Origin: Owenia fusiformis
Lineage: Eukaryota > Annelida > Polychaeta > Sabellida > Oweniidae
Length of the DNA: 64,000 nucleotides
Reading direction: 5' to 3'
NCBI GenBank assembly: GCA_903813345.2
Contig: CAIIXF020000010.1
Coordinates: forward strand, 30,810,828-30,874,827
Shown: positions 9,101 through 59,165 of the stretch, one piece after another
Layout of the letters: the number at the start of each line of letters is the position of its first letter
How positions within the stretch are numbered: position 1 is the first letter of the stretch
Translations under genes and position numbers: made by a program
The notes under the pieces: model-generated
Databases searched by the model: none
Told to the model about the DNA's origin: nothing
The model's input: the letters and a program-made list of their open reading frames with translations, nothing else

Positions 9101-12100
9101 TTGTAACAACCTTGACAGATGCTCCTCGTCTGCTCGTAGAGCGTTGAGACTACACAGCCAATATAATTCGGCGTCGTTTGGGCATCAAAAATTCAGCGCT
9201 GTTCCGGCACCGGTTTGGCAAGGTTCCAGCACCGAAACATTTCGCACTAAAATTTGACACCGGACTAGTCAGTCCATTTGGTGTCGAAACAGCACCGAAA
9301 TTTGGCACCAAAACGGCGTTGAAAATCAGATTGCATTTTGGGGGTGTAATTTAGTTGACCTTGACAATAGGCAATTGTCCTTTTAAATAAAGTCCCATTA
9401 TCAAAGCTTTACTGATGGGGAGAAGTGGGAGGGGGTTTTGCTTTGCCTTTTTAATTGCTCTCAGTGGTAAAAAGTGCTTGACTCCACATCCCTGCCTGTC
9501 TAAGCTGGAAGAAGGGAATGTTATGGACGTTGTGTTTTTTCTACGTGTTCTTGTCTCCTGTATCTGTCAGAATTATACTCACTGGTCAATATCAGGTAAA
9601 AGGTATGGCTGTTATCTTTTTCAAAATGCCAAACAGTAAGTGTTAATATTTACATCAAATTAAACTAGCTTAGTTGCCATGAACACTTGGCTTTAAGATG
9701 TTGACCATTTTGATCAGTTTTTGCTTATGTGACACAGAAACTCCTCAGTCTGATAAATATTTCGTTTATCATGTGTGTATTACATGTCAAAACCTAGAAA
9801 TATCAAAATCAACTTATTGTTCGCTATTTTGAAAGAGAATGTAGTGGCCATTACCTTCTGATACTGACCAATGAAAAGTGTTCAATATGCTCCACCTTAA
9901 ATAATAATGTTATGTCACCACCACAAGTTGTGACATATGTAACCACCACAAGTTGTGACATATGTCACCACCACAAGTGGTGACATATTGTTATAGTCTA
10001 CAACTTTTTTGTGGATGTTGTTTAGATTATGTTCAAAAGTTAGCGGTTAGTGTTCACCATTTGGTGTCTGTAACAAATGGCAGGTGGTGACATTTGGCAT
10101 GTTAATGCCTTGTATTTAACTTACAGAATAAATAAGATTTAAAAATCAACAAAGTTATACATATTTAAGAATAAAATTACATCAAATGTACATATACGAT
10201 AAATTTTATTTGCTTTATTCTTTATATTGTTATAGTGTTGGATTCAATTGTTAAATGTTATAAAAAATTATTTAATAAAAGATAAAGTATTCAGTCATCA
10301 AGGTTAGTTTTAATGAAGATACTTTTTTCAAGTTTAATTTCATTTTTAGGAACCTCAACACAATACGAGCCATCAACAGAATCCATGGCCACCCTGTAGA
10401 TAGATACACCATCATGGCTAGAAGGTATGTAGTCAATAATTTGGGACACCCTGTAGATAGATACACCATCATGGCTAGAAGGTATGTAGTTAATAATTTG
10501 GGGCACCCTGTAGATAGATACACCATCATGGCTAGAAGGTATGTAGTCAATAATTTTGGACACCCTGTAGAAAGATACATCAACATGGCTAGAAGGTATG
10601 TAGTCAATAATTTTGGACACCCTGTAGATAGATACACCATCATGGCTAGAAGGTATGTAGTCAATAATTTGGGACACCCTGTAGATAGATACACCATCAT
10701 GGCTAGAAGGTATGTAGTCAATAATTTCGGACACCCTGTAGATAGATACACCATCATGGCTAGAAGGTATGTAGTCAATATTTTGGGACACCCTTTAGAA
10801 AGATACACCATCATGGCTAGAAGGTATGTAGTCAATAATTTGGGACACCCTGTAGATAGATACACCATCATGGCTAGAAGGTACGTAGTCAATAATTTGG
10901 GACACCATGTAGATAGATACACCATCATGGCTAGAGGGTAAAAGGTATGTGTCTTGGTCAACTTAACCTCATATTGTCTCTAATTAACCTCTTGACTACC
11001 TGGAGTGACGATATTTCTCATCACCTAAGAAATGATCTTGAAACCCAGACTTACCCAAAAATAGTTTAAAGATGTGTAGAAATGATCTCTGCCATCTAAT
11101 TTTACTAAGTTGAGCATCTAAAGTTGTATAGGCATGTAGTTCAATGTCAAAAGGTGGCAAAAATGAAAAATTCTCTGGTTTCAACCAATTTTTGAGCCTG
11201 GGATTCAAGAGGTTAAAACCCTATTATGAGTTTTTTTATGAAATCTTGAGAGTAACAAATCAGAGTAGCTTCTCAGAGGCAAAGCAGTTGTATGACTCAT
11301 GCCTGAGTCAAAATCGCTCTGATTCATTGGGCAGCACCCAGCTGGTTAGTATTTTGTTTCGATTTCTATACAGTTTTGAACAAAATACTCAGTCGGGCTG
11401 GCACCGGCTGATTAATCATAGAAAATGTGACCCAGACATAAGAGAGTACAGAAGCGAAGAGTATGAAATGTAAGAATTGGCAAAAATAATGGGAGATGTT
11501 ACAAACAATATACTTAAAATAGAAATCACATAAACAAAATGAATAAAGAGAAACAATAACATTTCTTATATCAAGGTACAAAGTAACGAACAATATCCGA
11601 AAACTCAGGCTAACACATGATATCAAGGCACAGAGAAAACAGAATATTTAGACAACAGATAATCTGCAATATCGAGGTATAGGGTACACTTTACTTCAAA
11701 TTTTGAGGCGCATTGTTACACGGTATAAATATTGATTCTAAAAACATTGCCTTTGTTCCTTTGCAGTGCAATTGCTGGGGCTTATAAGGAAGAGAGGCAC
11801 ACAGGTTTAATAAGCAAAGTACAATCATCCTGGGAGAGACTTGTCTTTGAATACAGACTACAGTATGTTTGTTATAAAGTAACATTTACAAAGTGGTCCA
11901 AAAAATTGGAACATTTGATCTTTAGCTCAAAATCGTTATTTTTCCTCTAAAATGCACCAAGATTTTTCAGAGTATTGTTCAGTCACTTATTTATCTGATG
12001 GAAAGTTTATAGGTGCAAACAACAAAGTTAATGAATCAAGCTAGACAATGTTTGATATGACCCCTCTTCTCCTGAATTACAACTTCAAGCCTGGCACTCA

Positions 12101-22110: not shown

Positions 22111-23053
22111 TATATATACCATGTTTTCATATATACGAGAACTTTTGGGTATGACTGTTGCGAATGTCTGAATGAATGGAGGTGGTGTGAAAGTGATGTA
22201 ATATTTTATCTTTGTCTTTTAAAATGGATTATTGTGATATTGTTTGCCTATCTAGGTTGAAAATAAGATTTTATCATGTTTTATACACTCGATGTAGTAT
22301 TAATGTGCCATTGAATTCAATGAAAACTAACATTTCAAAATGTTCATTTCTCTAAATTACTTCTCTACGCTTATAGTTAAATTCTTGCTTATTTTTTAAT
22401 CACTTTTCTTATTTTTTCAACAGAAAAATAGTTTAGGATGTTTGTTATGCTTTGATGTGAATCATTAATAAATTATTGATTAACAATGTATGTGCGTGAA
22501 AATCACAATTTTCAGTCATATGCCAAGCAGTTATGTCATACGGAATTTATTTTCCCGATACTTTGTCATTGTGTTTGGAAGGAATTATAAGCTTGAATAG
22601 AGAATCTGGCTTTTGAGAAAAGGGAAAATAATACAGTTATACAAAGTAGGATTAGGAAAACAACAGTCAAATAATTCTAAGTGAAAATGTCTTACTTGAG
22701 TACTAAGCAAAACATTAACCGGTTAATAGTGAGCGACCTGGAATAGCGACTACCCTGCGCGCAGAGTCTAGTTATAAACTACCTGAAGACGAAGATCTCT
22801 TTTGAGAAGCGACGTCGAAAGCTTGCAAATGGTCTAGCGACAGCCTTCTTCAGATATTAAACATGAAATGGATTTATCAAACTTAAGGCTTCTGCTTAGT
22901 CATATATAGGTCGTATGAAATATAAGTTTGAGTTCTTGCCCAGAAAGACAGACGTACAGATGGGGGAATTCCCTACACCTCCCAGTCTTTGTTCGATGGG
23001 ATAAAACAGAACTATTCATCTAATAAGTAAAAGAGACCGACTTGGGCAAGACT
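22111..23053 (+). other. Upstream flank / putative 5' UTR of the glycosyltransferase
   Basis: No ORF of note. The 300 bp before the ATG are stop-rich. TATA-like stretches occur, but no promoter can be singled out in such AT-rich DNA. Confidence 0.3.
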
Positions 23054-24310
23054 ATGATCAACATGAAATTGTACACACGTATTCTCATTTTAAATCTTTC
23101 TGTAGCAATTTTGATTTACATATACAATTATAATATTAACGGAATTTCAACAAGAAGGAAGAATTCGAAAGAGCAGGAGAATGGGCCCGACTCCGTAGAT
23201 TTCCCCCATCAGGAAAAACAACACTTTCCAATCGAGGAAAAATTAATTTGGACGAAAACGATGACATGCAGCGTGGAATCTGGATATAAAAATTGCGTTG
23301 ATTGTTCTAATGGTACATCAGGGTATGACAAAATAGACCCCAATCCTGGAGTCAACTGTTCCTATAGCATCTGCCAGAAGATAAATAAAGGAAGACAACC
23401 TGTTATGTATAGGCAACCTAAATACATTATACCATCGATTGAAAGTCTGGTAACAATTGTAGTTAAAACTGCTAATCGCTTAAATCTCGTCGAGCGGTTA
23501 ATACGCAGTGTATGGAAGTTCTATCCCAATGTGAAATGTATTGTCGTTGACGACTATAATGAGTTCTTTGAAAAGAGACCTGGGCTTAAAAACTTCTTCA
23601 AAAACTCATCAAATGTAATCTACCATCAGGCGCATGAGAATGCTGGTATAAGTTACGGTCGTAACCTTGCATTAAAGTTTGTAAGAACAAAATATGTTTT
23701 CTTATGTGATGATGATGCGGTCTTCAATAGTGAGACAAACATTCCCAAGCTTCTTGATTTGTTGGAGCATACCGATTTATCATTCGCTGGAGTAACACAT
23801 AAAAACAAACCTAACCTCTTTTTTGGTGCCGTAATGGTTCGCCCAACAGAAGCACAAAACACATCAACGATGAGATCTAATGAAACGGTGGACCTTCTGC
23901 AATATTCAGCTATGTATTATGAAAGATTAGCGTGTTTTGGCCAGTGTTACGTCACAGATATAATATTGAATGCATTTCTTGCTCCCTTAGAGGATTTGTT
24001 AAAGATGGGAGGTTGGGATGCAAATTTAAAAACACAAGAACATATAGATTTTTTTCTGAGAGTACGCAAATACGGGCTTAAAGTTGCCGTCTGTTTAGAT
24101 GTAAATTTAAATCACAGGTCTCCTCGAAACAATCCCCTTCGTCAGAAGAGATTACAGAACAAAGATATTTACTTCAACATTATCAAACATAAATGGAATT
24201 TTTCAAAATGGTTTTTCTGTAAGACAAAAAGATTTTCCAGTTACCAAAACAGGAAATTTCCAGATGATTGGACTTGTAAGCAGACTCATATGTTTGACAC
24301 AAAACTATAA
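23054..24310 (+). CDS. B4GALNT-like (GT12/GT-A) glycosyltransferase, type II membrane protein, intronless
   Basis: 418 residues from ATG 23054; an in-frame ATG three codons on (23063) is also possible. A short cytosolic N-terminus is followed by a membrane anchor at residues about 8-26 and a Cys-containing stem (Cys 72, 81, 84, 102, 107). The catalytic GT-A domain starts near residue 132 (SLVTIVVKTANR), with VVDD at 164-167, the NAGISYGRN block at 196-204, the metal-binding FLCDDDAVF (Asp 219-221) and GGWDANLKTQEHIDFFLRVR at 319-338. These are the marks of beta-1,4-N-acetylgalactosaminyltransferases of the B4GALNT1/2 type. Expected role: Golgi addition of GalNAc to glycolipid or glycoprotein termini. 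N-glycosylation sequons occur at 86, 101, 184, 269 and 276. One uninterrupted exon suggests a retrocopy or a lineage-expanded intronless family. The acceptor cannot be told from sequence. Confidence 0.8.
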   Translation: MINMKLYTRILILNLSVAILIYIYNYNINGISTRRKNSKEQENGPDSVDFPHQEKQHFPIEEKLIWTKTMTCSVESGYKNCVDCSNGTSGYDKIDPNPGVNCSYSICQKINKGRQPVMYRQPKYIIPSIESLVTIVVKTANRLNLVERLIRSVWKFYPNVKCIVVDDYNEFFEKRPGLKNFFKNSSNVIYHQAHENAGISYGRNLALKFVRTKYVFLCDDDAVFNSETNIPKLLDLLEHTDLSFAGVTHKNKPNLFFGAVMVRPTEAQNTSTMRSNETVDLLQYSAMYYERLACFGQCYVTDIILNAFLAPLEDLLKMGGWDANLKTQEHIDFFLRVRKYGLKVAVCLDVNLNHRSPRNNPLRQKRLQNKDIYFNIIKHKWNFSKWFFCKTKRFSSYQNRKFPDDWTCKQTHMFDTKL

Positions 24311-24429: not shown

Positions 24430-26450
24430 CACATGCTCATGCGTCTGAATGTGTGAGCAACCTTAAGTTGTGTCCTCTGCGTCACAGATGTAACTGTGTC
24501 CACACCATGTGTATTTATATGTCTATACATCTGAACGAGTAAGCAACTCCTGATATTGTTTTGTGTATGTAACAGGGGTATTTTGGTTCACACGATTCAT
24601 TTTACATGTCCATGTATCCGAATAAGTTAGCAACTAATTACAAATGTATATGGTTCTTTTGTGTGACAGAGGTAGCCTTGTAATTAACATGTATTTTACA
24701 TGCCCATGGTTCCGAATAAGTAAGCAACTCATGATAATGTTTTCTTTTGTGTAACAGAGACACATTGGTTAATACCATGCATAGTACATGCCCATGCTTC
24801 CGAATAAGTAAGCAACTCATCATAATGTTTTCTTTTGTGTAACAGAGACACCTTGGTTAATACCATGCATTTTACGTGCCCATGCTTCCGAATAAGTAAG
24901 CAACTCATGATAATGTTTTCTTTTGTGTAACAGAGACACCTTGGTTAATACCATGCATTTTACGTGCCCATGCTTCCGAATAAGTAAGCAACTCATGATA
25001 ATGTTTTCTTTTGTGTAACAGAGACACCTTGGTTAATACCATGCATTTTACGTGCCCATGCTTCCGAATAGTAAGCAACTCATGATAATGTTTTCTTTTG
25101 TGTAACAGAGACACCTTGGTTAATACCATGCATTTTACATGCCCATGCTTCCGAATAAGTAAGCAACTCATGATAATGTTTTTTTTTGTGAAACAGAGAC
25201 ACATTGGTTAATACCATGCATTTTACATGCCCATGCTTCCGAATAAGTAAGCAACTCATGATAATGTTTTCATTTGTGTAACAGAGACACATTGGTTCAT
25301 TCCATGCATTTTACATGCCCATGCTTCCGAATAAGTAAGCAACTCATGATAATGTTTTCATTTGTGTAACAGACACATTGGTTCATACCATGCATGTTAC
25401 ATGCCCATGCTTCCGAATAAGTAAGCAACTCATGATAATGTTTTCTTTTGTGTAACAGAGACACATTGGTTAATACCATGCACAGTACATGCCCATGCTT
25501 CCGAAAAAGTAAGCAACTCGTGATAATGTTTTCTTTTGTGTAACAGAGACACATTAATTCATACCATGCATTTTACATGCTCATGCTTCCGAATAAGTAA
25601 GCAACTCATGATAATGTTTTCTTTTGTGTAACAGAGACACCTTGGTTCATACCATGCATTTTACATGCCCATGCTTCCGAATGAGCAAGCTAATGTTTTG
25701 CTTTTGTGTAAAAGAGACACCTTGGTTAATGCCACGCGTTTTACTTATGAATGCATCTATATGAGATAGAAACTTATGATATTTATCCTTTGTGTTACAG
25801 AAGTACCTTGGTTAATACCATGCATTTTACATGCCCATGCTTCCTATATTAATGCCACGCGTTTTACTTATGAATGCATCTATATGAGATAGAAACTTAT
25901 GATATTGATCCTTTGTGTTACAGAGGTACCTTGGTTAATACCATGCATTTTACATGCCCATGTTTCCTATATTAATGTCACGCGTTTTACTTATGAATGC
26001 ATCTATATGAGATAGAAACTTATGATATTGATCCTTTGTGTTACAGAAGTATCCTTGGTTAATACCATGTATTTTACATGTCTACGCATCTGAATGAGCT
26101 AGCAACTTAGTATCTTGTGTAACACATGTAGTCTTGTAAATACCATGTATTTTCCATGTCCTTGTATCTGAATATGGTAGATACTCATGATAATGTTTTG
26201 CGGAACAGAAGTACCTTGGTTAAATGGTTAATACCATTAATTTTACATGTCAATGCATCTATACGAGTTCATAGCTCAGAAAATTGTTTATTTTGTGAAA
26301 CAGAAGTACCTTGGGTAATACCATGCATTTTACATGTCAATGCATCTATACGAGTTCATAGCTCAGAAAATTGTTTATTTTGTGTAACAGAAATACCTTG
26401 GGTAATACCATGCATTTTATATGTCAATGCTTTCTTTATGAGTTAGCAAC
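24430..26450. repeat. 88-bp minisatellite downstream of the glycosyltransferase gene
   Basis: About 22 copies. The central ones (24720-25680) are nearly identical, with an exact 88-bp step. Unit landmarks are CATGCTTCCGAATAAGTAAG, CAACTCATGATAATG, TTTTGTGTAACAGAGACAC and TTGGTTAATACCATGCATTT. Edge copies are diverged, as is usual for arrays that expand in the middle. Inside, 25725-26040 carries a compound unit of about 118-120 bp (CACGCGTTTTACTTATGAAT plus part of the 88-mer), repeated about three times. Minus-strand ORFs here are repeat artefacts. Each unit contains an acceptor-like TTTTGTGTAACAG. Confidence 0.95.
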
Positions 26451-26870: not shown

Positions 26871-28425
26871 TATTTTCTGATCTCTTGAGTTCCTTTGAAG
26901 ATTCAGAAAAATGCAACAACAAATACTCCAGTTAGTTGATGGATACTCTAAGTGTTTTAAGTTGCTTTTACTTGTAAATCAACTAAAGTAAGACATAATA
27001 ATAAACATAATTTTGCAGATAAAAGCTGTCATTCAAATTGATGTGTGGATGCTATGATTATGTTGTATAAACATGTCCCAGTTAATATATTTCTATAGCT
27101 CTATGACTGTTATAACGAGGTAGCTCTTTTAAATACTCTAATTAGTTATTTCCATAACTGTATTTGTGTGTGAATTGTGATATATTTAATGATGATGATA
27201 AATATATATTGCTAATGTGGCGATTCAGAAAGAGAAACCTGAAATATTTTGTAAATTATTAGTCTCATGGGGAAATAACGTTGAAAACATGAAGTTTTAC
27301 CTTTGAAAGCCGATTCTTATGAGTCAGTGGTATTATCCCTATGGAGGTTTCATTATACTTTCAAGGAGTTATGGCATGAAACGTGCGAATTCGTACAAAA
27401 GAGTCCTATGTTTAGTTAATGCTGAAGGAATGATGTTAATACTAGTATGTATAATTTGGTAGATATACTGAGAGATGGTGAAAGAGTGTTGATATATATG
27501 AAATACTATGTGCGAGTGTGCTTGGCAACTAGTATGTGTGTATGGGAATTGGAGAAGAAGAACTGGATTTGTTTTGTAAAATCAAAATTGGAATTATTAC
27601 ATGTTTTAATCAAGAAAATCAATATTTATTTTTGAAATACGAGTGTCCCATTTTTTGGAACACCCTGTATACCGGGTTTTAAAATTAAGTGCCCCAGATT
27701 GAAAAGTGGCCAAGTGGGGCTTTTGAAAACTACGATTTTCATCCCATTCTTTGCTGATTTGCAAATGTCAAACGGTAAAATCGGGCGGAAGGTCTGGTGG
27801 GCGTCCCGAAAAACTGATGTTTCGACTACTAGGAAAGTTTATATAACGCATTAGTTTTTGGACATTCTGGGTAAATGTTAATTTTGAATTTTCCGTCCTA
27901 AAATCTTGTCTCCCGAAGCTTGTCTACAGGTTTCAAGTCAAACCGTGTCTGAAATTGAGTAATATTTGAAGATTTTCATATGTGTAAAAGTTGTTCTTGT
28001 GCAATTAAAAAGAGCGTGAATACAGAAAATACTATCTGAAACTGTGATGCCATGTAATTATTACACTAGCAAGAAAGCACATTCCTTTCGAGAAAAATTA
28101 AATTAAAAAGAACTATTTTATAAAGTGCCTTTTGTTCGACATTCTGAAAAGAAAACGAAATGAAATATGTATAAAAATATTTTTCTATATTGCGATCTAT
28201 CGAAAACACAATTCAAGGTGTTCTTGAGAGTTACCCTTAAAACAACAAAACTTTCAAAAGTTTCAAATCTTTCTACAGTAGTTTGTCATGAGTCAGAGTG
28301 TTTGAAATTGTTTTTTGGGATCATTCGCCTAATATAATATATGTATGTTATTATCTCTAAACGATTGCTTGACCTGTATGTTGACAGGTGGTAAATGTCA
28401 AAACTATTTTGTTTTTTATTTCTAG
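26871..28425. other. Non-coding stretch before the cGLR-ZF gene
   Basis: No gene recognised. At 27643-27671 there is a mariner-type end (TTTTTTGGAACACCCTGTAT). The last bases contain the pyrimidine tract and CTAG at 28408-28425, used as an acceptor just before the start codon. A 5' UTR exon probably lies in or upstream of this stretch. Confidence 0.4.
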
Positions 28426-28429
28426 CTGT

Positions 28430-31053
28430 ATGATGGTGCGTTTAAAAAATCTCGTTGACAAAACAGTTGAGAAAGTTGACATTAGACGTAAGTACTCAGC
28501 GAGACAATTGGATATGCAGACAGCATATATAGAAAAGCTCGTTTCGGACATCAGAAGGAAAGTAGGTCTACGGGAACCCGCATTGGCAACTAATGAACAG
28601 ATCAACCGCGGAAGCTACTATGACGGTACTAAGATTCTTGACCCAGATGAGTACGATTATGAGCCGATTCTGGATTTGTCTAAACATATTACTAACGTAA
28701 CTGAACCGATGCCTGGTTTGAAGGAACAGGGGTACAAAACCATTCTATTTCGAGAAAAGGAATTGCATAAACATATACACGAACAATATTTGGTACGTAC
28801 ATTTCCAAACGGAAAAGATGCTGAATTGAAATGTCGAGAACTGCTTGCTAAGATACGTCAGAACGTCAACAGGGTGCTAGAGGATATGCATAAGGAAGGA
28901 ACTGTGATGTTTATTGGTGAATGCGACCACACTAAGGATCCTAAGGATTACGACAAAAACACAAGAGAAATAAGCACTCATAATGCACCGCATGGCCCAA
29001 GTGTGTGGCTTAGGGTTGGTGCACCTCTGGGAACCACAGACATTGATATGTGTTTCTGCCTTAAATGGAAGCCACATGAGCTGGGACCAAGTGTTATGGT
29101 CCCTACGAATAAAGGATGGCTGGAATCAGTAGTAAGTCTGCCAGACAATAGCATATATAAACTGACACCAGTCCACAAAAATTTACTTCTAACAGTCAAG
29201 TATGTAACACACTTAACTAGTGCATTAATGTCCTCGAAGTTCTCTTACAGTGTTTCATCGTATATCTTAAAAGCCGTTATCCTCCACCACCAGACAGAGT
29301 GCCGTTCGGACAATATCGACAAATGCTTTATTGCTATCATCTATGACATGATGTTGAAACCAAATGAAGAATTTGACGAGCATGAAAATGTTGTGTTTTT
29401 AACCAATCGACATATCGAAATTCCTGATATTGTTTACAGAGAAAAAGCTTTGCAAATAAGTGGTGAAAAGCGAGTATCGTTACTGATCTCAATGTTGTGG
29501 GTTGTTCAGCACGTTAAGCTGAATAGCAATACGGACTGGTTTGATGCATTTCTTCGCAATGACAAAGGTGAAATCAAAAAGAACTCAACGTTAAGGTCTC
29601 TAAATGAAAGTTTGAAGAAATTCTTTAAAATAACTGACACGGGCAAGGTTGACTTTGAGTGGCAACATGACAAAATGAAGACAAGCGTTAGAGTAACTGG
29701 TGTGAATTCCAAAGAGGATAGGCTAAAGTCGGGACGCAAAGGAGTAAAAAATCAAAGGTAACAACACGCTAATATTCTCCGCATAATAGGGTCAAGATTA
29801 AGAACATTTTAAACTTCAAACACTAAAGCTGAATTTCGTAAGTATCCTAACATTTATACTTCATGAACAGAAATCTTTTCAGTAGCGGTCGTTTCGATAA
29901 TATTCTCCTGACATATGATAACTGTTAAGAACAATTCGAACTCCAAATGCATAATCTTATAATGAGCGTATAAGAATTTCTTAGGTATCCTGAAAATGTA
30001 TGAGCGTGTAAAGTGCAGAACACCTCATTTATATGGAAGATGGTCAATTCAAGTAGAGGTCGTTTCGGCACCTAAACTTACATATACATATAGTATGGAC
30101 ACGTCTATAACTATATATTGTAAATATATATCGATCTATATGCTTGCTTTAAACGTTTCATATTCTGTTAACGTGTCTTCATGTGTCTATCTAGGTCTGA
30201 GACGCACACTTCCGACCAACCGGCTTACGGGTTAGTACCAAAGACTGAGAATTCAAGGAAGAAGAAAAATGATGAAAATGTAAGTTACAAACATACATGC
30301 AGTATAACCAGAAAAGTGTAACATTCGAAATATTAATTTTTATAGTTCGATCAAGTTACAGAAGCCGAAATAAGTATTTTGATTTTTTTTCATTTATTTA
30401 ATATTTAAATCATGTAAACATATTAACATACAGTAATAAAGACACCCCAGGGGGTGAATGGCTTATCACAAGCTAAACTACTTAGGATGGTCATATATTG
30501 TTATGTTCTAAATAGATTTATTTTTGAGAATTAAGCGTTCGTCATTAATACATCTGTGGAACTATCTTGTATTTTTCAGAAATATGGCTCAAAACCATCT
30601 GCACAAGACCAAGCGCAGCTCCCCGAACCAGCAGCGTTACAAGTACCTGTAGCCAGCTCTCAACGCAAAGGCCAAACACCCACCAAGACCTGTAGTAAAC
30701 GAAGTCCACCAGAAAAAACTAAGAAGCAAGCAAAATGTGAACAAACAAACGATAATAAAGAGAAGGTTGTCAAACATTTGGCAACACCCACCGTAGAAAA
30801 GAAATATGAATGCGCCAAATGCATGACCGCATTCAAAGCAAAGTCAACGTTACGTAATCACGAAGAGATCTGTCAACGGACCGATAAACCATTCCATTGT
30901 AAGGTTTGTAGGAAGTCCTTTAAAGCAGAACGTTACTTAAAAGAGCATATTAAAGGCCATGAGAATCCCGAACAATACGAATGCGACATATGTGGGGATA
31001 AGTTTCCCTATCGTGGAACTCTACAGGGTCATAAACGAAGCAAACACAAATAA
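28430..31053 (+). CDS. cGAS/Mab-21-like nucleotidyltransferase fused to three zinc fingers (cGLR-ZF)
   Basis: Three coding exons, 28430-29757, 30195-30279 and 30580-31053, join in frame (phases 2 and 0) to 628 residues. Donors are GTAACA and GTAAGT; acceptors are CTATCTAG and ATTTTTCAG. Residues about 1-430 are a Mab-21/cGAS fold: Gly61-Ser62, then Glu74 and Asp76 in DPDEYDYEP. The Ser-to-Glu distance is twelve, as in human cGAS Ser213/Glu225. A third acidic residue is Asp206 in TTDIDMCFCLKW, so all metal ligands appear present and an active cyclic-dinucleotide-type synthase is plausible. The cGAS zinc-thumb pattern is not evident. A basic linker (443-546) leads to fingers C549-C552-H565-C569, C578-C581-H594-H598 and C606-C609-H622-H627. 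Expected role is an innate nucleic-acid sensor making a cyclic dinucleotide; this is inference. Confidence 0.85.
30580..31053 (+). CDS. Zinc-finger exon of the cGLR-ZF gene
   Basis: The exon begins after ATTTTTCAG at 30579 and ends with TAA at 31051-31053. It encodes a Pro/Gln/Lys-rich linker followed by a C2HC finger and two classical C2H2 fingers with the usual aromatic and Phe/Leu core positions (for example FHCKVCRKSFKAERYLKEHI). The inter-finger linkers (QRTDKPF, ENPEQY) are near the TGEKP length. The short feeder exon 30195-30279 (85 nt) ties it to the nucleotidyltransferase exon in frame. The alternative, a separate small zinc-finger gene, is less likely because there is no in-frame ATG near the exon start and both junctions fit. 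Confidence 0.8.
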   Translation, partial: KYGSKPSAQDQAQLPEPAALQVPVASSQRKGQTPTKTCSKRSPPEKTKKQAKCEQTNDNKEKVVKHLATPTVEKKYECAKCMTAFKAKSTLRNHEEICQRTDKPFHCKVCRKSFKAERYLKEHIKGHENPEQYECDICGDKFPYRGTLQGHKRSKHK

Positions 31054-53680: not shown

Positions 53681-54488
53681 AGTGATCATAACTAATATAT
53701 TTCAGAAAATAAACATATTAACGAACAAATAGTTCAGACGACCTTACTTTAATGAAGTAGACGGAACTTCAAAAAGGGTTAGAATCTGTACTTCTATATC
53801 GTTCCTCATTGTTGGTGGTCCAGGATATGTTCAGCAGAAACCTTATGCTGATCGGGAAGGGGGGAGTATATTTCGGGTGGTCAACGATTGTGTTGTGTGG
53901 TTGCCCGGTTGATTGTTGTCTCTATTTAGAGAAGCTTAATTGGATAAGAGTGACTAAGAGTGACTAAGAAGTCATGTAAATTTTTACTCCTGAAAAGTTC
54001 ACAAAATCTTCATAAATAAGTAAAGTTGTATCTAAAGGTTCTGCATAGGTATCTATGAATATATGGAGCACGCAAATGTGATATTTTGAAAAATAAACTT
54101 GGAGTATGCAAAGAGATATATGCACAAACTGCAGGATATTTAGACAGAAGCTGAATACTACAAACATACAATATAAAATACATGCTGGATAAATTAGCTA
54201 CAGCCAGCACTACAAAATATTTACCTTGCAAGGGACAACCTTGGATTAGCCCTATATTGTTGCAGCTTGACTTATTAACTGTAAACACCTGTGAACACTT
54301 GTACTAAAAGCTACACACCATATCACTAGAGGTTTATTGTGCGGTTGATTGTGATACTAACACTGATCACTAACTCTTCATCACTACGCATTTTACCCTG
54401 AACTGTTCATCATTGATTGATCGATCTGTTGATTATTGAATGGTTAATTGCGAACTGTGACCTCGACTGAGATATAACTGCATCCAGA

Positions 54489-55613
54489 ATGCCGGGTCAC
54501 TCTCCTACCGGCACAAAACAGCCTCGCAAAAGACGCCGTAAGACAAGGAATATTCAGAGGCGTAAATCCTACTCTGAAACTCCGACATCTTGGGATGATA
54601 CCACTGACTATTGTGATTCGCCAGTTAACGAAACAGTCGACAAATGTTCGGCTTCACCAGAGACATTTACCCCTTCACAACCTGCAGACTCAGCTCCAGT
54701 GAGTGCAAACTCAGGTCACAACCAGGAAAGCTGCCAGACAACAACTGATCCAAAACCATTTCACCAACCTGCACCAAACAAGCCAGATCCCAATTCACTA
54801 CAGCAATCTTACACGGAATCTCTCCAGAATGAAATTTTGAACGACATCAAAACAAAATTAATAAAAGCTGTAAAAGATGACTTGGTGAAAGTTGTCAAAG
54901 CAGAGATCATTTCAGAATTTAAACAATGCATTATACAAAGCATGAATGAGCTTGAACAAAGGTTGAATGACAAGATGAAGATAGAGCTAGATTCATTTAA
55001 AGAGGGTGCCTTACTGTTTGAGCATAGTGTGACAAAACGCGTTTCTGAAATTGATGGTAGGATGAAAAATATTGAAGAAAGTAAAATAGAAATATGCCAA
55101 CCCCCTTTCCCACCTGAAAAAAGCGTGATCATTAGGAATGTGCCCCAGAAATCGGATGAAAATGTAACGAGCAAAGCTGTCATGGTTGTGAAAGAAGGTC
55201 TTGGACTAAACCCAGACATGATAGTTAAAGTAGAGAGGACCAAAATGCGAAACAACAAACCAGGAGTGATAAAAGTCCAAGTGAACTCAATGGAAAATAA
55301 AATAAAAATCTTGAAGCACAAAAAGGCTCTGATGGAAAAACCTAAGTTCAAAACTGTGTACATCAATGGAGCAAAGTCTCATGAGGAGCGACTCATAGAT
55401 ATAAATACTAGAGAAATGCTCAAGATCATACCTGGTGGTGACAAGTTGATGGTTACAGGCAATGGACGACTTAAAAAGAAACAAGACAATACAGCACATA
55501 AGCATGATGAACACACAACCAATTATGAAGAAGCTTGGGAAAATGTTCCTTCATCGAGATCCCGAGGGAGAGGCCGACCACCTCGTGGGAGAGGTCATGC
55601 TTGGAACAGTTAG
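54489..55613 (+). CDS. LINE ORF1 (nucleic-acid-binding gag-like protein)
   Basis: 374 residues from ATG 54489. A basic N-terminus (RKRRRKTRNIQRRK, residues 13-26) precedes a Ser/Thr/Pro-rich region and a likely coiled coil at about 110-200 (NDIKTKLIKAVKDDLVKVVK and onward). An RRM-like domain follows at about 205-300 (SVIIRNVPQKSDENVTSKA, VKVERTKMRNNKPGVIKVQV). A C-terminal RG-rich tail (SRGRGRPPRGRGH) ends the protein. The arrangement is that of ORF1 proteins of L1/CR1-type elements, which trimerise and coat the element RNA. It ends with TAG, and the next codons stay open into ORF2 in the same frame. Confidence 0.85.
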   Translation: MPGHSPTGTKQPRKRRRKTRNIQRRKSYSETPTSWDDTTDYCDSPVNETVDKCSASPETFTPSQPADSAPVSANSGHNQESCQTTTDPKPFHQPAPNKPDPNSLQQSYTESLQNEILNDIKTKLIKAVKDDLVKVVKAEIISEFKQCIIQSMNELEQRLNDKMKIELDSFKEGALLFEHSVTKRVSEIDGRMKNIEESKIEICQPPFPPEKSVIIRNVPQKSDENVTSKAVMVVKEGLGLNPDMIVKVERTKMRNNKPGVIKVQVNSMENKIKILKHKKALMEKPKFKTVYINGAKSHEERLIDINTREMLKIIPGGDKLMVTGNGRLKKKQDNTAHKHDEHTTNYEEAWENVPSSRSRGRGRPPRGRGHAWNS

Positions 55614-55643
55614 GATAAAAACCAGCCCTGTTGTCTAAAAATC

Positions 55644-58600
55644 ATGCATTGGAATATAAATTCATGGACTAAGCAAAATGGAAAAATAAGAGCAGATATC
55701 ATTAAATCAGTTGACCCTGATGTAGTATGTCTTGTTGAAACAAAACTCATTAACAACGATGAAATTACCTTGCCAGGCTGGAAGTGGTTTGGACAAAACA
55801 GAAAATCGCTAAAAAATACAGCCAAATGTGGATCAGGGGGTGTTGGAATTCTTATTCGAGAATCCCTACTTTCAGACTGTAGCATTAAAATCGTAGAAAA
55901 TTCATTTGAAGGTATTTATGCAGTCAAGCTACATCATACAAACACTGACAGTTCTATTCTCATAGTAGTAGCATATCTCCCACCTGAAGGTGGCGCAAGA
56001 GGACGAGATTCCCTTGGCTTTTTTGACACTCTGCTGCAAATAACATATGATTATGCAGATGTGGACAAGTTAATAATATCAACTGATGTAAATGCCAGGA
56101 TAGCAGATATGCTTGACTTTATGCCAGATATTGACAATATTCCCCGAAGGAAAAACATTGATATTTCAAAAAATAAACATGGTGAATGTTTCATAGATTT
56201 TCTCTTAGAATCCAAATGCTGTGTACTGAATGGTCGTTTTGATCCACTTCAGGATGATTTTACATTTTTGTCAACAAGAGGCTCTTCTGTTGTAGACTAT
56301 ATGGTTACACCAAATGTGATGCTATCAGACTTCCTTCATTTTGAAGTTAAAACAGTTGCTGATGCATGCAATGACTTTGATATACATCCTGATAGTAAAA
56401 GAACTAAATTACCTGACCATTCTATGCTAATTTGTCAAGTGAGGTTATCAGATGTAAAATATGACTATGTAGTTAGTAGTACTCCAACAAATAGTTCCTG
56501 TGATCTTGATGTAGATGATATTACAAATGTACGGTTTAATTTTAAAAACATTCCCAAAAATTTTTTCTCTAATGATATCATGGAACAAGTAAATTCAGTT
56601 ATCACCCGAATACAAAGTGAAATAGAAAACCAGGATGATATAAATAACATGTACAGTGAAATATGTGCAATGTATTATGATGCTATGAAGCAATCTTTGC
56701 CCTTCTTTGACAATAGTAGATTAAAGAAAAGATATAGATTTACACCAAAACCATGGTGGGACCAAAACCTAGATGAGCTTTGGAAAAAACTGTGTGAGTG
56801 TGAAAAAAATTATAAATCACACGCTCGTATATCTGGTAAACAAGATAGGAATAAAAGAGAGTTGCTTCAGAAATATAAACAAGCACAAATAAACTTTGAC
56901 AAAACAGTTAGTAGAGCTAAAAGAAAATTTAACCTCTCAAAGCGCCTATTAATTGAACATCTAAACACAAATGACCCTAAAGAATTTTGGAAAGAAATTG
57001 AAAATTTAGGCCCATCAAAAAAGTGTAAAACTAGTATTCCAAATGAGGTGATTGATAAAGATGGAAAAATTTTATCAGGGGAAAAGGATGTTCTAAATGT
57101 ATGGCGTGATCAGTTTGAATCATTATATAAGAAATCTGAAAACACTGAGTTTGACGATGAATTTTATCAAGACCTTCTTAATCTGAAAAACGACATGGAA
57201 GATAATAGGTTTTTTGATGCTGATAATCAAGGTCCTGACAATCAGGAAGAACTGAACAAACTAAATGAGACAATCACAATGGATGAAGTAGGGACTGTAA
57301 TCAAGAATATAAAGAAAGGTAAAGCCATAGGAATTGATTACTTACCCGCTGAAGTATTCCAAAATGATGCATCTTTAACGCTACTTATAGCACTCTTCAA
57401 TAAAATATTTACAACTGGCCTTTACCCAGAACAGTGGAAAAAGGCCATTATAAAACCAATACCTAAGAGTCGTATAAAGGACCCACGAATTCCCCTTAAC
57501 TATAGAGGCATTAGTCTCCTATGTACAATGGCTAAGCTATATAGTTCGGTTATAAATACTAGACTTTCCCAGTTTGCTGAAACCAAGATTGTTGACGAAC
57601 AAAATGGATTTAGGAAATTAAGATCTTGTGTGGACCATCTATTTGTTATCACAACTATCATAAGAAATAGAAAAGCAAAGGGCCAATCTTCTTTTATATG
57701 CTACATCGACCTGGAAAAATGTTTCGATAAAATTAATAGAGATTGTTTACTTCTAAAGCTTAGAAAACTTGGTATAAATGGGAAAATATATCAGACACTG
57801 AGTAGCATGTACGCTCACACACAGAGTACAGTTAACGTCAATAATAAACTAACTGACTGGTTCACTACAGAAACAGGATGCCGCCAGGGGGACAATATTT
57901 CCACAACAGCATTCTCTATATTCATAAACGATTTGGCCCAAGAATTAAAATCAGCTGGGTTGGGTATTAAGTTTGGTGATGATATAATTTCATGTTTGTT
58001 ATTTGCCGATGACATTGCTATATTGTCTGAAAATGAGAAGAACTTGCAGGAATTGTTAAATCTAGCTTATAATTGGTGCCATAAATGGAGAGTTAATGTT
58101 AATATTGATAAATCCAATATAGTGCATTATCGTAAAAATAGTACTCCCAGATCAGATTTCAAATTTACATTTGGAACAAAGCATTTAGAAACCGCCACGC
58201 AATATAAGTATCTTGGATGTATATTAGATGAAACACTTAACTTCACTACAACTGCCGAAAATCTAAGCGCAGCAGCAGGCCGAGCTTTGGGGGGCCTCAT
58301 CACAAAATTTAGGAAACACAATGGACTTTTCTATACAGCATACACAAGACTTTATAACACATGTATACTCCCAATTTTGAATTATGGGTCCGGCGTTTGG
58401 GGAAACAAAACTTATCAATGTACTGACAATATCCAACACAGGGCAATGAGGGCATTTCTAGGTGTGCATAGATTTGCATCTATCCCAGCAATGTACGGTG
58501 ATTTGACATGGATGACACCATTAGACACTAGAAAATTAGATATTATACGTCTTTGGAACAGAATTACATTCATGAATAATAATCGTATCACTAAAAGAGT

Positions 58601-59165
58601 GTTCATGGAAGATTATCAAAATGGGAAAGCAAGTTGGTGCAGCGACTTTAAAAAACTGTGCATTGATTTAAATTTTGAAGAGCACTACCGTGATCAAACA
58701 TATATTGACTTACGTATGGCACGAACCAGACTAATGAAGAAACAAAAAGAAAAATGGCATCAGGAAATTCTTGAACAACGTAAATTACGTACATATGTTA
58801 CTTTTAAAACAGACTTTAAACCAGATCAATTCATTTTATGTGACTTGCCAAGAGGCACTAGATCACTGATTTCACAATTTCGGTATGGAATTCTACCTTT
58901 GCATATTGAAACTGGCAGATTTGTAAATACCAATGTAAATGAGCGTTTTTGTAACATTTGTAAGTCGGGTGAAATCGAAGATGAAAAGCATTTTATTTTT
59001 GATTGTAGTGCATATAGGAAAAAAAGAAATGAGTTCTTTGAAAAATTGGAAATAGAGAGTCTGACTTTAAGTGACATTTTTAAAAGTAAAAGATACACTA
59101 AGATGTTTGGTCAGTATTTAATTGACATAATGCAGATCAGGAAAGACTTTATTTTTAAACAATAA
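55644..59165 (+). CDS. LINE ORF2: AP-endonuclease plus reverse transcriptase
   Basis: 1173 residues, intact. The endonuclease spans about 1-265: Asn4 in HWNINSW, Glu32 in VETKL, STDVNA (146-151), SVVDY (215-219) and the terminal PDHS (257-260). The reverse transcriptase lies in the middle: GIDYLPAEVF near 565, YRGISLLCTMAKLY, QNGFRKLRSCVDHLF, YIDLEKCFDKI, GCRQGDNIS, catalytic FADD at 787-790, then the thumb. The C-terminus has a CCHC knuckle, C1103-C1106-H1116-C1121. There is no RNase H. This fits the CR1/L2/Jockey broad group; the clade is not resolved by eye. All catalytic motifs are present, so the copy may be retrotransposition-competent. Minus-strand frames across it are shadows. Confidence 0.92.
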   Translation: MHWNINSWTKQNGKIRADIIKSVDPDVVCLVETKLINNDEITLPGWKWFGQNRKSLKNTAKCGSGGVGILIRESLLSDCSIKIVENSFEGIYAVKLHHTNTDSSILIVVAYLPPEGGARGRDSLGFFDTLLQITYDYADVDKLIISTDVNARIADMLDFMPDIDNIPRRKNIDISKNKHGECFIDFLLESKCCVLNGRFDPLQDDFTFLSTRGSSVVDYMVTPNVMLSDFLHFEVKTVADACNDFDIHPDSKRTKLPDHSMLICQVRLSDVKYDYVVSSTPTNSSCDLDVDDITNVRFNFKNIPKNFFSNDIMEQVNSVITRIQSEIENQDDINNMYSEICAMYYDAMKQSLPFFDNSRLKKRYRFTPKPWWDQNLDELWKKLCECEKNYKSHARISGKQDRNKRELLQKYKQAQINFDKTVSRAKRKFNLSKRLLIEHLNTNDPKEFWKEIENLGPSKKCKTSIPNEVIDKDGKILSGEKDVLNVWRDQFESLYKKSENTEFDDEFYQDLLNLKNDMEDNRFFDADNQGPDNQEELNKLNETITMDEVGTVIKNIKKGKAIGIDYLPAEVFQNDASLTLLIALFNKIFTTGLYPEQWKKAIIKPIPKSRIKDPRIPLNYRGISLLCTMAKLYSSVINTRLSQFAETKIVDEQNGFRKLRSCVDHLFVITTIIRNRKAKGQSSFICYIDLEKCFDKINRDCLLLKLRKLGINGKIYQTLSSMYAHTQSTVNVNNKLTDWFTTETGCRQGDNISTTAFSIFINDLAQELKSAGLGIKFGDDIISCLLFADDIAILSENEKNLQELLNLAYNWCHKWRVNVNIDKSNIVHYRKNSTPRSDFKFTFGTKHLETATQYKYLGCILDETLNFTTTAENLSAAAGRALGGLITKFRKHNGLFYTAYTRLYNTCILPILNYGSGVWGNKTYQCTDNIQHRAMRAFLGVHRFASIPAMYGDLTWMTPLDTRKLDIIRLWNRITFMNNNRITKRVFMEDYQNGKASWCSDFKKLCIDLNFEEHYRDQTYIDLRMARTRLMKKQKEKWHQEILEQRKLRTYVTFKTDFKPDQFILCDLPRGTRSLISQFRYGILPLHIETGRFVNTNVNERFCNICKSGEIEDEKHFIFDCSAYRKKRNEFFEKLEIESLTLSDIFKSKRYTKMFGQYLIDIMQIRKDFIFKQ

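Follow-up and report, generated by a model that had tools for sequence, protein, structure and literature searches.

Does the cGLR-like reading frame in this window (the whole 64-kb stretch of DNA that was analyzed) belong to the same gene as the zinc-finger exon that follows it, and if so, where did the fingers come from and what might they do? The question matters since the core is regarded as the part with which cGLRs read nucleic acid, and fingers that are added and kept under selection would let recognition and catalysis be separated and swapped. At this locus an innate immune sensor appears to have acquired a domain through exon capture, and the case looks clean: the likely donor family, the finger-less relatives, and a duplicated pair all sit within one genome. 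In the published survey of animal cGLRs, 87% lack any extra domain, and the extras that it names are ankyrin, TPR, and death domains, along with multi-cGLR fusions (PMC9980059). The word “zinc” is absent from the main text of that survey, a check that does not extend to its supplementary Table S2. The first-pass annotation of this locus did not know the combination of a Mab-21 core with zinc fingers as a described family. The listings of our literature searches, those on annelids included, contain no description of this architecture, and the claim stands to that extent, with the supplementary domain table of the survey outside its scope.

The gene has three plus-strand exons of 1328, 85, and 474 nt, whose coordinates are collected in Table 1. 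Both introns are bounded by GT and AG, and the joined frame runs in phase through 628 aa to a stop codon. The predicted protein carries GS at residues 61-62, DEYD at 73-76, and DIDMC at 204-208, followed by a flexible basic linker of about 130 to 150 residues with the Lys-rich segments RKKKNDEN and KRSPPEKTKKQAK. Three fingers end the protein, a C2HC finger at residues 549-569 and C2H2 fingers at 578-598 and 606-627. The acceptor TTTCTAG ends four bases 5' of the ATG and is kept, in another phase relative to the ATG, in the paralog described below, which suggests a non-coding 5' exon upstream of exon 1.

Table 1. Features of the cGLR–zinc-finger gene, in window coordinates.
Feature	Position	Strand	Evidence
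Splice acceptor AG (28424-28425) and 4-nt leader ahead of the ATG	28424..28429	+	Same acceptor and CTGT leader in paralog L009
Exon 1: cGLR nucleotidyltransferase/Mab-21 core and start of linker, residues 1-442 plus 2 nt	28430..29757	+	Pfam Mab-21, 24.4 bits; profile alignments to solved cGAS and cGLR1; dN/dS 0.25 (residues 1-400)
Active-site segment, Gly61-Ser62 through Glu74 and Asp76	28610..28657	+	Aligned to the cGAS and cGLR1 motif; invariant in 13/13 Mab-21-family sequences, window included
Third acid, Asp206 in DIDMC	29039..29053	+	Invariant in 13/13; aligned to VDL of cGLR1 (8gjy)
Intron 1, phase 2, GT-AG	29758..30194	+	3' part still alignable to the paralog
Exon 2: 85-nt linker exon without any Met	30195..30279	+	65% identity over 23 residues in the paralog; flanking phases equal
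Intron 2, phase 0, GT-AG	30280..30579	+	Splice-site reading in window and paralog
Exon 3, part 1: Lys-rich linker, residues 472-544	30580..30798	+	dN/dS 0.59 (bootstrap 0.30-1.19), residues 472-545
Exon 3, part 2: C2HC-C2H2-C2H2 module and stop codon	30799..31053	+	zf-C2H2, 35.8 bits; dN/dS 0.13; module common to the genome's ZNF loci

We assessed the identity of the core by profile searches and alignment. The exon 1 product passes the Pfam Mab-21 profile (PF03281) marginally, its 24.4 bits standing against a cutoff of 24.1, and a six-frame search of the genome with the same profile returned 32 matches that include the paralog at 27.3 bits and do not include the window gene. A Glyco_hydro_85 match of exon 1 fell under its cutoff and was rejected. 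The window protein was aligned with 12 Mab-21-family sequences from the genome, namely, the seven nearest relatives from the core search and five chosen from the top Mab-21 matches (L021, one of the aligned sequences, has MID51 as its closest PDB relative); L026, a sixth such choice, was left out because the frame that opens at its first Met does not contain that part of the core. The alignment has 13 invariant columns. Gly61, Ser62, Glu74, Asp76, and Asp206 are invariant in all 13 sequences, a conservation whose scope is these 13. A profile built from the 13, window protein included, matches cGLR1 (8gjy) at profile positions 8-335 (E value, 3.5e-33), with the GS/E-x-D segment and the third Asp aligned to their counterparts in 8gjy. 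Part of this score comes from the five added sequences, which stand nearer to cGAS or MID51 than the window protein does. The eight nearest sequences alone give a profile whose best PDB match, to cGAS, has an E value of 2e-4 and covers the first motif only. A single-sequence AlphaFold model of the exon 1 product reached a pLDDT of 35. By alignment, not by structure, the active site is intact, and the catalytic residues that the first-pass annotation had named are the ones found here.

The best evidence that exon 3 belongs to the cGLR gene comes from a diverged paralog (L009) that repeats the exon trio with the same order and phases. This paralog is the best core match after the window gene itself, is 74% identical, and lies 2.5 Mb away on the same contig with an open frame of 647 aa. 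It also contains a counterpart of exon 2, and a finger exon with 68% identity to exon 3 sits 2.5 kb past its core match; among the matches listed, the finger match that ranks next is 45% identical and covers the fingers only. The splice sites agree between the two genes, and exon lengths modulo 3 are 2, 1, and 0 in both. We estimated selection between the two copies by the Nei-Gojobori method with a codon bootstrap. The core has a dS of 0.53 and a dN/dS of 0.25 (0.17 to 0.36), the fingers have a dS of 0.71 and a dN/dS of 0.13 (0.05 to 0.29), and the linker has a dN/dS of 0.66 (0.42 to 1.05). By this measure the fingers are the most constrained part of the protein and the linker is relaxed, and the zinc ligands are kept in the fingers of both copies. 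These values fit one joint duplication, with core and fingers both constrained since. The fusion is very probably real and under selection, and the matching exons and phases of the paralog, together with selection, indicate that the three exons are probably spliced in vivo. Both the in-phase joining of three exons and the anatomy first read from this locus (a cGLR core, a basic linker, one C2HC finger, and two C2H2 fingers) are borne out, the former by the frame, the GT-AG sites, and the paralog and the latter by the Pfam scores, the finger positions, and the paralog.

To see how restricted the fusion is, we searched the genome (498 Mb in 525 contigs) with the core. The search gave 112 exon-level matches that resolve into at least 93 cGLR loci, a lower bound given that 95 of 159 candidates were scored. 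The loci are most numerous on contigs C4 and C10, with 19 of the 93 on each, and close groups lie on C4 at 22.3-22.4 and 24.8-24.9 Mb. We scanned the 4.5 kb downstream of the three nearest finger-less relatives and of another 20 cGLR loci, a procedure blind to fingers split by an intron, and saw no convincing C2H2 finger; each of the two positive controls gave three. A pattern match at L046 was rejected as a hydrophobic chance match, as was a single finger (L011) as a tail of L004, since it lies 5.0 kb past the L004 core in another frame of 571 aa. We also compared the 93 loci with 75 finger places, taken from the matches listed among at least 205 (150 of 2,218 candidates scored) after dropping repeats within an array. 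Only the window gene and its paralog have one of these finger places on their own strand at a distance of up to 20 kb; one on contig C9 is 9.2 kb off on the opposite strand and was not taken as a fusion. Among the at least 93 loci, only this pair was seen with a tail, and 23 others were inspected directly; further fusions may exist among the roughly 68 loci outside direct inspection. Two of the finger-less relatives, L003 and L004, both begin with MGCSLSKS, which we take to resemble a myristoylation/palmitoylation signal, so these proteins may be located at membranes.

The fingers themselves point to a donor. The exon 3 product contains three stretches that match zf-C2H2 (cutoff, 25.2 bits), and a structure model of this product alone has a pLDDT of 54, with low-confidence strands and helices for fingers 1 and 2. 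Among the matches listed, its best other matches are eight genome loci (L013-L020). Like the cGLR tails, the frames of these ZNF loci end in C2HC-C2H2-C2H2: the third-last finger is C2HC in 9 of 10 modules (the eight loci and both cGLR tails), L020 being without the Cys and L019 being broken by a stop inside its C2HC finger. A motif resembling FKxxxYLKEH is present in all 10 modules, those of the two cGLR tails among them. In 12 more finger segments taken from that search, neither this motif nor a C2HC third-last finger occurs. The ten modules rank highest in similarity to the window module and the 12 others come from the next listed, as segments of 261 to 357 nt, and because the ten were picked by similarity to the window module, the contrast speaks for kinship and is not independent proof of the route. 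At L013, L014, L018, and L020, a phase-0 acceptor resembling the one of exon 3 can be made out by visual inspection. Unlike the cGLR tails, seven of the eight ZNF frames hold more fingers upstream, L015 and L017 have a readable acceptor in another phase (none could be read by eye in L016 and L019), and no cGLR core match lies within 20 kb of any of the eight among the matches listed. Since exon 3 resembles the terminal frames of this lineage ZNF family, the tail was probably captured from the terminal exon of one of its branches. The finger motifs are common to the family and may thus be structural or protein binding rather than ligand selective.

Set against known systems, the window protein shares with animal cGLRs (cGLR1, 8gjy, and those covered in the main text of PMC9980059) a Mab-21 core, the GS motif, three acids, a large lineage expansion, and STING domains in the genome, and it differs from them in its additional C-terminal C2H2 module. 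Its catalytic motif can also be aligned with that of vertebrate cGAS. However, in vertebrate cGAS a zinc ribbon is built into the fold at 390-405, as described in a review (PMC10855445), while the zinc sites of the window protein lie in a separate tail. No Cys-rich insert precedes KYVTHL in the alignments of the window core, although placement against cGAS is weak there (the second segment scores -1.1 bits). The first-pass annotation had argued from this missing zinc thumb that the fingers may have taken over ligand grip. We find that argument weak because fly and shrimp homologs aligned in PMC12928593 are likewise without the ribbon; the review states that the ribbon is conserved among vertebrate cGAS and cGLRs, though the fly protein CG7194 lacks it (PMC10855445). 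The crustacean Mab21 proteins are similar in being invertebrate Mab21/cGAS relatives without a zinc ribbon, but they are reported to lack essential catalytic residues (PMC12928593), which the window core has by alignment.

Charge bears on the further suggestion that the fingers form a second ligand-binding arm. The full-length pI is 9.27 for the window protein and 8.93 for the paralog, against 5.70 to 6.99 for six finger-less relatives, bulk pI being a crude proxy for a binding surface that cannot separate a grip on ligand from a tether. The cores alone have pI values of 8.06 (window) and 8.76 (paralog) and the tails values of 9.76 and 9.00, and the net charge of the tail is +24 over 213 aa in the window protein and +9 over 223 aa in the paralog. 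In the survey, nucleic-acid-sensing cGLRs have a pI above 8.5, and some acidic cGLRs probably answer other ligands (PMC9980059). L022 (pI 9.27) and L024 (pI 9.54), distant cGLRs that have no fingers, are as basic as the fused pair, so fingers are not needed for a basic cGLR. A second arm is plausible and draws some support from charge, a support that these two distant proteins weaken.

The mechanism that we infer spans the capture route, enzyme activity, nucleic-acid binding by the tail, and signaling to STING. A cGLR gene would have taken over the last exon of a lineage-specific C2H2 zinc-finger gene, so that its product, 628 aa long, would combine a catalytic cGLR core, a flexible basic linker, and a C2HC-C2H2-C2H2 module. 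The fusion gene would then have duplicated, with both copies retaining the fusion. The fingers and the basic linker would bind nucleic acid, probably double stranded, and hold it against the core, and the loaded core would make a cyclic dinucleotide for the STING proteins of this genome, in which we found 14 exon-level matches to STING ligand-binding domains. We give an even chance to the central proposition, that of a catalytic cGLR with a captured tail that helps bind nucleic acid and contributes grip or selectivity. A more speculative extension, which we consider unlikely, is that the near-neutral to acidic cGLR clade dropped sensing by the core and one gene regained it through a captured nucleic-acid-binding module, such that the ligand would be chosen by swappable fingers and not by the enzyme groove.

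The most basic alternative is that two genes have been read as one, with exon 1 a single-exon cGLR ending at 29761 and exons 2 and 3 a separate zinc-finger gene. The exon structure is read here from genomic sequence, and the finger-less relatives L003-L005 each consist of a single long open frame, with no finger seen in the 4.5 kb that follow. In both copies the frame of exon 1, continued into intron 1, runs into a stop after a single codon (29757-29761, and the matching site in the paralog, L002), a point in favor of two genes, although any phase-2 GTAA donor brings such a stop. Retention of intron 1 would accordingly give a finger-less form. Exons 2 and 3 of the window copy have no Met codon before finger 1, the first Met being residue 553 inside that finger, so they could not make the whole module alone. 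This argument is limited to the window copy, as exon 3 of the paralog has Met codons of its own. Two independent genes are nonetheless hard to reconcile with an exon trio preserved in phase in a diverged paralog and with a same-strand finger within 20 kb being peculiar to this pair among the 75 finger places and 93 cGLR loci compared, and we regard this alternative as very improbable.

If the fusion is real, the tail could instead position the enzyme, by nuclear import, as a chromatin tether, or by keeping it away from self DNA, with no part in sensing an activating ligand. Such a tether or localization role is the main rival to a grip on nucleic acid. The Lys-rich linker segments would suit it, the related ZNF loci resemble ordinary C2H2 proteins, and the most constrained fingers beside a relaxed linker would also fit a fixed docking surface. 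All of this is read from sequence, though, and a higher pI is expected under either view; we consider positioning somewhat unlikely, if a serious contender. A less probable alternative still is that the core is a pseudo-enzyme or a sensor of something other than nucleic acid and that the protein acts through its fingers, by analogy with the shrimp Mab21 proteins, which are reported to signal without the canonical nucleic-acid-sensing route. The core is divergent and its Mab-21 score marginal, and the six finger-less relatives are near neutral to acidic; some acidic cGLRs, according to the survey, probably answer other ligands (PMC9980059). However, by alignment both copies carry the catalytic residues, as do all 13 family members aligned, unlike the shrimp proteins as described, and the core is under purifying selection, which makes this reading quite unlikely. 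A catalytic enzyme whose captured tail helps to hold nucleic acid remains our preferred reading.

The rest of the window holds several other features. Two adjacent long frames of 380 and 1183 aa lie at 54471-59165 on the plus strand. The 380-aa frame has no Pfam match. The 1183-aa frame encodes an endonuclease domain together with a reverse transcriptase (Pfam RVT_1, 130 bits), so the region, with its long open frames, resembles a non-LTR retrotransposon. A repetitive stretch at 10272-10979 is open on both strands (235 and 220 aa), and its open frames are thus no sign of a gene. No Rfam family matched in the window at gathering scores. Minisatellite arrays with units of 88, 123, and 87 bp occupy 24538-26430, about 2 kb upstream of the cGLR gene, and a 427-aa frame at 23027-24310 on the plus strand contains a family 2 glycosyltransferase domain (PF00535, 56.6 bits).
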